33,182 nucleotides of DNA, from positions 1 through 33,182 of the forward strand of contig JAAYPO010000091.1 of assembly GCA_012519745.1 (NCBI GenBank), in the 5' to 3' direction. This stretch comes from Clostridiaceae bacterium (GTDB taxonomy: Bacteria; Bacillota; Clostridia; Acetivibrionales; DTU013). The notes below the pieces were generated by a model. That model saw only the letters and a list, made by a program, of their open reading frames with translations. It was not told the origin of the DNA and searched no databases. The translations under genes and the position numbers were made by a program. Shown piece by piece: positions 30,045 through 33,182 of the stretch; position 1 is the stretch's first letter; every line of letters starts with the position of its first letter.

Positions 30045-30504
30045 CGGCAAGCCTCCCTTCATACTCTGCATACCTGCTTCCTATAAAGCTGATTGTGATC
30101 AGCCTGCTGTCCATATCGTCTCTGTCATCCTTCTCGATATTTATTTCGATCCGTTCCTCAGGAAGTATTTCCTTTATGATATCTGCCCATTCAATGACGG
30201 TTACACCATCACCGCCGATGTATTCATCATATCCGGTGTCGAACATCTCCTCCGGGCCTCCAATCCTGTAGACATCAAAATGATATAGCGGAAGCCTTCC
30301 CTCATATTCATTTACGATAGTAAAGGTAGGACTGGTGATATACCCGCCGATTTCAAGACCGGCTGCAATCCCGCCGGTAAGGGCTGTCTTCCCGGTTCCA
30401 AGTTCGCCTGTAAGGCACACATCGTCACCCTTTTGCAGTATCCTCCCAAGCTTTTTCCCCAGCTCTGCAGTTTCGCCAACTGAGCCCGCATGGAATCTAA
30501 TCAT
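30025..30504 (-). CDS. tsaE: t6A synthesis ATPase TsaE
   Basis: P-loop ATPase of the t6A complex. The 159-residue protein has Walker A GELGTGKT (33-40), SPTFTIVNEYEG, LYHFDVYRI and VIEWAD, as expected. Its ATG overlaps the amidohydrolase stop codon (ATGA at 30501-30504), so it is translationally coupled to that gene, and it overlaps tsaB by 20 nt. No own ribosome site is evident. Confidence 0.95.
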   Translation of the reverse strand: MIRFHAGSVGETAELGKKLGRILQKGDDVCLTGELGTGKTALTGGIAAGLEIGGYITSPTFTIVNEYEGRLPLYHFDVYRIGGPEEMFDTGYDEYIGGDGVTVIEWADIIKEILPEERIEINIEKDDRDDMDSRLITISFIGSRYAEYEGRLADEIPCR

Positions 30505-31679
30505 ACGCCCACGACCACCTGCCCGTTAATAATCGTATACAGGATCTTTGACCTCAGCTCCAGCGGATGCCCGTCCATAATGATTATGTCGGCATCCTTT
30601 CCGACTGCCAGACTTCCCACCCTGTCGTCTATCCCGGTGATCTCGGCAGCGTTTATGGTAATAGCTCTGAGCGCCTCCGTCTCATCCATTCCCTCTCTGA
30701 CTGCAACAGCTGCGCAAAGGGGCAGATACTGGACCGGAGTACAGGGATGGTCTGTCATTATCGCGATTTTCAGGCCGGCCTTCGAGAGTATTCCCGGTGC
30801 CTTTATACTCTGGTTTCTCAATTCTATTTTTGACCTGTCATTCAGAAAAGGACCTGTGATCACGCTGACATTTTCCTCACGCAGTATATCTGTGATCAAA
30901 TGACCCTCTGTACAGTGCTCTATTGTGATCCTTAGCCCGAATTCCTTGGCGATCCTCAACGCAGTAAGTATGTCATCCGCCCTGTGGGCATGCGCCTTTA
31001 AAGGTATCTCCCTGTTCAGCAGCTTCAGCAGCGCCTCCATTTTCATATCATAGTCCGGCTTGTCGTAATTCTCACTGTCCCGCTGATGATCGTCAAGCAT
31101 CTTCTTGTATTCAGCCGCCTTCATTAGATTCTCCCTCAGAAGCGCAGCCGTGGCCATCCTTGTCATAGGGGTCTGCCTTTTTTCGTGATAGACTGTTTTG
31201 GGGTTTTCTCCAAAAGCGGCCTTCATGGCTATCGGCTCCCTGATGACCATATCCTCCACTCTGCGGCCAAATGTCTTTAGAGCCGCAAACTGGCCGCCTA
31301 TGACATTTGCACTGCCGGGGCCGGTAACGACAGTCGTTACCCCGTTCTCCCTGGCTTCTGCAAAAGCCCTGTCTGCATGATATATCGCATCGATCGCCCG
31401 CAGATGAGGTGTGATAGGGTCTGTCATCTCATTGCCGTCATCGCCTTCAAAGCCTACCGCATCCTCCCACATCCCTATATGGCAATGGGCATCCACAAAG
31501 CCGGGCAGAACATAGCAGCCCTTTGCATCTATGACTTCAGAGCTTGCCGCCTCCAGCCTTGCCAGCTCAGCAGCATCATCGCCCAGCGCTGTTATTTTTT
31601 CCCCATCCGCCGCAATATATCCGTTTTTATAGTCAACTCCTGCCATAGTGAGCAGCTTCGCATTTTTTATCAGTATCAT
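30501..31679 (-). CDS. Metal-dependent amidohydrolase (imidazolonepropionase-like)
   Basis: The 392-residue protein is an amidohydrolase-superfamily enzyme: composite N- and C-terminal beta-sandwich (ADGEKITALGDD; AVGKDADIIIMDG), metal-binding HCH (His65, His67 in VDAHCHIG), LKAHAHRADDI, IEHCTEGH and TDHPCTPV with a catalytic Asp. The start at 31679 is chosen from the AGGAGGTC 4-6 nt upstream; a frame from 31706 is longer by nine residues. Substrate cannot be assigned; members include imidazolonepropionase- and dipeptidase-like enzymes. It heads the operon leading to tsaE, tsaB and rimI, driven by the promoter at 31715-31743. Confidence 0.92.
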   Translation of the reverse strand: MILIKNAKLLTMAGVDYKNGYIAADGEKITALGDDAAELARLEAASSEVIDAKGCYVLPGFVDAHCHIGMWEDAVGFEGDDGNEMTDPITPHLRAIDAIYHADRAFAEARENGVTTVVTGPGSANVIGGQFAALKTFGRRVEDMVIREPIAMKAAFGENPKTVYHEKRQTPMTRMATAALLRENLMKAAEYKKMLDDHQRDSENYDKPDYDMKMEALLKLLNREIPLKAHAHRADDILTALRIAKEFGLRITIEHCTEGHLITDILREENVSVITGPFLNDRSKIELRNQSIKAPGILSKAGLKIAIMTDHPCTPVQYLPLCAAVAVREGMDETEALRAITINAAEITGIDDRVGSLAVGKDADIIIMDGHPLELRSKILYTIINGQVVVGV

Positions 31680-31714
31680 TATTGACCTCCTGTAATCAAA
31701 AAACAACTTCTTTC

Positions 31715-32734: not shown

Positions 32735-32765
32735 AAAAACCCCAGAAACACTGAGGTTTCTGAGG
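32735..32765 (-). terminator. Minus-strand terminator downstream of the repeat array
   Basis: On the minus strand CCTCAGAAAC (32765-32756) pairs with GTTTCTGGGG (32749-32740) with one mismatch, loop of 6, followed by TTTTTATTT. It implies a transcript coming from the repeat region, although no gene is there. Confidence 0.65.
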
Positions 32766-32804
32766 TCTGTAAGCTCTTTGAAATAATCTTGTGATGTCCT
32801 TTCC

Positions 32805-32996
32805 CACTAAAGTTTGCTCGACCAGTGACAAAGTCTGCTCGGCTGGAAACCCATGCGTCCCAAGACTTTCCGCCGCACCTACCCTTCAGTGACAAAGTCT
32901 GCTCGTGGCCGCAAACACTCCGAATTACCCCTAAAATATATAAAAAAATAGCAAAATGACAAGCGAGTTCGCTTAAGCAGTGACAAAGTCTGCTCG
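32805..32996 (-). repeat. Three identical 19-bp repeats plus one degenerate copy
   Basis: CAGTGACAAAGTCTGCTCG occurs at 32823-32841, 32887-32905 and 32978-32996, with a decayed relative at about 32805-32820 (CACTAAAGTTTGCTCG). Spacings are 64 and 91 bp, unequal, which excludes CRISPR. Each copy contains a GAC-AAA-GTC dyad. Confidence 0.85.
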
Positions 32997-33182
32997 TATA
33001 AAGCACGGTATTTTATACGCAGTATTCACTTTTCATACGCAGGGTATAACCCTCTGCAGCAATATTGGAATTATATCAAATACACCTCCGCATTTCAACA
33101 TATCTACATATATATTTATCTTTGGTTGGCTACAACACTGCTGTTATGCACCTTTTGGTTGATTACACCGGCGGAGATGGAG

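Follow-up and report, generated by a model that had tools for sequence, protein, structure and literature searches.

The window, by which we mean the whole 33,182-nucleotide stretch of DNA analyzed here, is the entire contig C22 of its assembly, and the contig ends 186 bases past an array of short repeats. At its opposite end the contig opens with a dispersed repeat of about 120 bp (positions 1-119), which is identical over 119 bp on contig C82 and has copies that are 82-85% alike on C52, C50, C20, C111, C51, and C49; a tmRNA gene (415-834, tag AKNDNFALAAA) lies near this contig start. The features in and around the array are the following.

30501-31706, minus strand: amidohydrolase gene, host flank (Pfam PF01979)
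32737-32768, minus strand: intrinsic terminator in the flank, 26 bases away from the left terminus of the element (terminator scan)
32790-32794, plus strand: target site duplication TGTGA (TCACA in the direction of rpsI), the same five bases being found at the right junction on contig C2
32795-33182, plus strand: almost certainly the left end of a Tn7-like transposon, from a 5'-TGTCC terminus at 32795 inward and off the contig end (duplication and end alignment)
32801-32820, plus strand: site S1, a degenerate copy in a form 3 bases longer (position shared with the ends of relatives)
32823-32841, plus strand: site S2, exact 19-mer (repeat scan and end alignment)
32887-32905, plus strand: site S3, exact 19-mer (repeat scan and end alignment)
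32956-32975, plus strand: site S4, diverged (same place in G009, G019, and G042)
32978-32996, plus strand: site S5, exact 19-mer (repeat scan and end alignment)
33033-33051, plus strand: conserved block TCATACGCAGGGTATAACC inside the left end (same letters in relatives)

The array is built on the 19-mer CAGTGACAAAGTCTGCTCG, and the three identical copies described in the original prediction are present at 32823-32841, 32887-32905, and 32978-32996. Shuffling gives 0.01 matches to this sequence per shuffle with up to three mismatches allowed, and a search of the whole 3.07-Mb assembly, as had been proposed, returned no copies beyond these three. The degenerate fourth copy reported at the same time is real and is site S1; that count of three exact copies and one degenerate copy stands, except that a second diverged copy, S4, had been overlooked. 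The start-to-start spacings of 64 and 91 bear out the claim that the copies fall in three different frames, and the 128-amino acid frame that spans the array has no Pfam match. A CRISPR array would have spacers of one length, which these same spacings do not show. The five-site arrangement scores 74 out of 85, with 46 for the runner-up position in the window on either strand, a result that shows uniqueness only because the scored offsets came from the window locus itself. S2, S3, and S5 (32823-32996) all carry GTCTGCTCG where relatives have GTTTGCTCG, a shared change suggesting that the sites of a single end evolve in concert.

The boundary of the structure was placed by a 5-bp duplication together with alignment to the ends in G006, G009, G019, G036, and G042. 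The right end is found in the same genome on contig C2, 5 bp past the stop codon of rpsI, the gene for ribosomal protein S9. Contig C2, which ends 132 bases beyond this stop, reads TAA, TCACA, and then TGTCGACATAC, and the window end reads GGACA, TCACA, and AGATT in the direction of rpsI, TCACA being the 5-bp duplication at both outer junctions. The two outer junctions of G009 share the duplication TCTTT and those of G036 share TTTGG; in G042, where ATTGG adjoins the left terminus and TTGGT precedes the right one, the duplication is shifted by one base. No duplication was found in G006 or G014, both sides of which are readable, and an exact duplication is present in three of the six cases with both sides readable. 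Furthermore, the sites at one outer end point opposite to those at the other. With five spaced sites of transposase type adjoining a TGT terminus and a target site duplication at both junctions, we are nearly certain that a Tn7-like transposon has inserted between rpsI and the amidohydrolase gene and that the array is its left end. Two of the roles initially suggested for the repeats, binding sites and a mobile element, hold jointly, for these would be TnsB sites, by homology, at a transposon end.

The uninterrupted arrangement is seen in G005 and G007, where rpsI is directly followed by the amidohydrolase gene with no element between; these counterparts behind rpsI share 80% (G005) and 75% (G007) identity with the amidohydrolase of the window. 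We examined the sequence after rpsI in 18 genomes and located the gene end in 17 of them (all but G024). A right terminus, chosen by eye in this survey, lies 4-8 bases past the rpsI stop in 12 of the 17. No right terminus was found behind rpsI in G005, G007, or G019, although G019 has a left end; G001 has a decayed right terminus without TGT, and the contig of G002 keeps 5 bases past rpsI. Insertion is thus directed, with the termini judged by eye, to one place behind a conserved gene and in one orientation.

The minus-strand terminator that had been reported near the array is recovered by the scan at 32768-32737, but it belongs to the target flank, not to the transposon. Because of the gene order at the empty sites of G005 and G007, it is most likely the original rpsI terminator, displaced by the insertion. 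Right ends include a terminator-like hairpin, and for this reason the element seems to bring a replacement terminator for rpsI, leaving the old one stranded on the far side. A different reading of the right end, as the conserved native rpsI terminator, was rejected given that it is absent from the empty-site genomes; it is also countered by further right-end copies away from rpsI in G009 and G042.

The displaced terminator also bears on the third role in the original prediction, a noncoding RNA with repeated modules. As a minus-strand transcript, it would start from a promoter near 33098-33070 and stop at 32768-32737. A promoter-like match (11/12) and the terminator-like hairpin are indeed on the correct strand for such an RNA. 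However, the predicted transcript would run across the transposon terminus into target DNA, an Rfam scan gave nothing credible (one sub-threshold match, outside the array), and the folding energy of the array is ordinary (z -1.13). Conservation among relatives falls on the sites and the distances between them, and in G009 and G042 the sites end at the terminus, beyond which the flanks are unrelated. The RNA role is thus unsupported, and we consider it highly improbable.

The architecture of the transposon left end is shared among relatives. Measured from the terminus, the sites of the window start at 7, 31, 95, 162, and 186, and those of both G009 ends and the inner G042 end at 7, 31, 96, 163, and 196. 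In G019 the starts are 7, 31, 96, and 163, where the contig stops, and in G036 the contig breaks off after two sites. One additional site is present in the outer G042 end, and the G006 end is without everything between S1 and S5. At the G006 locus (L005, around 1490) S1 is fused to the sequence behind S5, and this left end looks as if recombination between repeats had deleted the three sites between S1 and S5. Identity between the window and the inner G042 end is 76/91 within sites versus 57/115 between sites; the corresponding values are 74/91 and 53/115 for G009 and 59/91 and 55/115 for G019, whose site identity is lower because its sequence is without S5. The letters of the conserved block TCATACGCAGGGTATAACC recur in G006, G009, and G042, and in G012, G125, G199, and G332, with GATACGC replacing CATACGC in the second G042 copy. 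This block is near letter-perfect between distant end copies despite differing surroundings.

A complete element can be followed in G009, which is assembled as one contig. There, a 45-kb segment with the duplication TCTTT lies between rpsI and the amidohydrolase gene and encodes TnsA (PF08721, PF08722), TnsB (PF09299), TnsC (PF05621), and TniQ/TnsD (PF06527, PF15978), all with matches that exceed the Pfam cut-offs, along with a cargo of BREX genes and an IetS-like gene. The nearest solved structure to its TnsB is that of E. coli Tn7 (7pik, E 9e-108), and its TniQ matches Tn7 TnsD (E 2e-19). The site cluster is located between rpsI and the TnsA gene in both G042 and G009; in G042 tnsA is beside rpsI and the sole TnsB match is elsewhere. 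A second, approximately 50% identical TnsB is encoded away from rpsI at G009:C1:669240-671339 (L058) and G042:C1:160678-162792 (L057), and further Tn7-like elements are therefore present in these genomes.

By homology with Tn7, TnsB would bind the five spaced sites and pair the left end with the right end, and TnsA and TnsB together would cut the element out. TnsC would relay the signal from the target selector TniQ/TnsD, which is predicted to read the 3' end of rpsI, and the insertion would leave the 5-bp duplication.

The G009 and G042 elements also have in common a stretch, 94% identical over 1.8 kb, that contains a tyrosine recombinase gene (the G009 protein belongs to Pfam PF00589). If the array were instead the end of an integrative element with a tyrosine recombinase, the repeats would be arm-type binding sites, and both the common recombinase gene and the long direct repeats that form the ends in G009 and G042 would be consistent with this. 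Nevertheless, the 5-bp duplications, the TGT termini, and the presence of tnsABC and tniQ suit Tn7 rather than a recombinase, and the outer-end sites are oppositely oriented. We therefore regard an element of this type as very unlikely here and retain the Tn7-like transposon.

The direct repeats of the transposon consist, in G009, of two identical, like-oriented copies of a 458-bp unit, 45 kb apart with one copy at each element end (L036 and L038, at about 4007.7-4008.1 kb and 4053.0-4053.4 kb); the end units of G042 are 86% identical to each other. A right terminus and a complete left end are both present in each unit, together with the hairpin and the conserved block, and the outer duplication in G009 encloses both units. 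The element ends may be direct copies of one two-terminus unit, like the long terminal repeats of retrotransposons. We put forward, as a speculative and rather unlikely possibility, an rpsI-homing clade of Tn7-like elements with doubled ends, in which a unit of about 455 bp stands at each end and recombination between units frees the interior. This recombination would perhaps take place at the conserved block, aided by the tyrosine recombinase of the element, and release of the interior would leave a two-ended landing pad behind rpsI for the loading of new defense cargo. A simpler reading than a functional design of this kind is that elements inserted in tandem and then decayed; the main-text passages of Benler et al. 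(PMC8649781) describe multiple ends that result when one element inserts inside or beside another.

The state of the copy in the window's genome is a separate matter from its kind. Searches of this genome for TnsA and TnsB returned nothing, and the same searches found targets in relatives; a TniQ family search, which had no positive control, also returned nothing. The two ends sit on separate contigs (C2 and C22) with the interior unassembled, and neither end has a second copy within the assembly. With the interior unassembled and no TnsA, TnsB, or TniQ detected, this may be a non-autonomous copy or a relic, or the tns genes may simply lie in the unassembled part. We judge the chances to be even that it is non-autonomous or a relic, with an array that is no longer in use. 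No tns genes were found in an assembly that has 138 contigs and is 99.99% complete, and short forms exist elsewhere: the right and left termini are about 130 bp apart in G014, and the G006 form measures 2.8 kb. On the other hand, S2, S3, and S5 remain identical. Each contig also breaks off within its transposon end, C2 after exactly 127 bp, a hint of repeated sequence and of additional material in the gap. It is possible that short-read assembly produced the 127-bp right-end stretch on C2 as an overlap; the stretch was found on no second contig, and at its opposite end the window's contig shows no clean 127-bp overlap.

A query of 381 bases around the array had matches in 12 of 60 genomes, the window's genome included, and clear relatives carry clusters of GAGCAAACTTTGTCACT-like sites; the short matches L011 and L014 were discarded as sequence unlike an end. 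Among 391 genomes of the class, 10 carry the S1-S2 double-site pattern (reversed control, 0). Six of these ten genomes are outside the order, and all six loci continue into another like site, three of them reaching the conserved block. TnsA homologues were detected in 19 of 391 genomes, in a sample without G009; several adjoin glmS-like sequence, and among 27 fetched TnsA stretches an rpsI end was found on the G042 stretch only. Scans for exact 18-mers gave 5 stretches in genome contigs and 6 in viral contigs, and the only one of the 11 that was inspected, L025, was rejected as a single copy in surroundings unlike an end.

A row of transposase docking sites at a Tn7-like end is a known kind of structure. 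Targets named for Tn7-like elements in the passages available from PMC10293859, PMC8649781, and PMC11406308 include glmS, tRNA, parE, and comM, but not rpsI, and a Bacillus cereus island with two Tn7-like sets sits after glmS, according to the portion seen of PMC2359905. The rpsI site is likewise absent from the main-text passages of the survey by Benler et al. (PMC8649781). In mostly open-access text we found no literature that pairs Tn7-like elements with rpsI, Tn7-like transposons with ribosomal protein S9, or rpsI with tnsB. Provisionally, rpsI as a Tn7-like landing site is new to the literature searched, which was mostly open-access main text. An unexplained repeat thereby becomes a precise transposon boundary, and rpsI is indicated as a Tn7-like landing site; new target selectors of the TnsD type are wanted both for understanding the spread of defense islands and as tools for site-specific insertion.

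The element resembles E. coli Tn7 (TnsABC+D) in that the G009 proteins match Tn7 TnsB and TnsD, and it shares with Tn7, as far as Tn7 is covered in passages of PMC11406308, the spaced left-end TnsB sites (here putative), the 5-bp duplication, and insertion directly after a conserved gene, which the right end adjoins. It differs in its target, rpsI rather than the glmS of Tn7, in having five left-end sites versus the three given for Tn7 in the main-text passages of PMC8649781, and in the doubled ends of G009 and G042. Within the same class, Tn7-like elements at glmS sites (glmS having been recognized by eye) have TnsA proteins 35-58% identical to that of G009, but they lie at this other gene and show no motif site of at least 14/17 within the fetched stretches. 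Finally, in the defense-carrying Tn7-like transposons described in the main-text passages of Benler et al. (PMC8649781), arrays of TnsB sites mark the ends and the cargo often consists of defense genes, and the BREX and IetS-like cargo of G009 resembles the defense cargo reported there.
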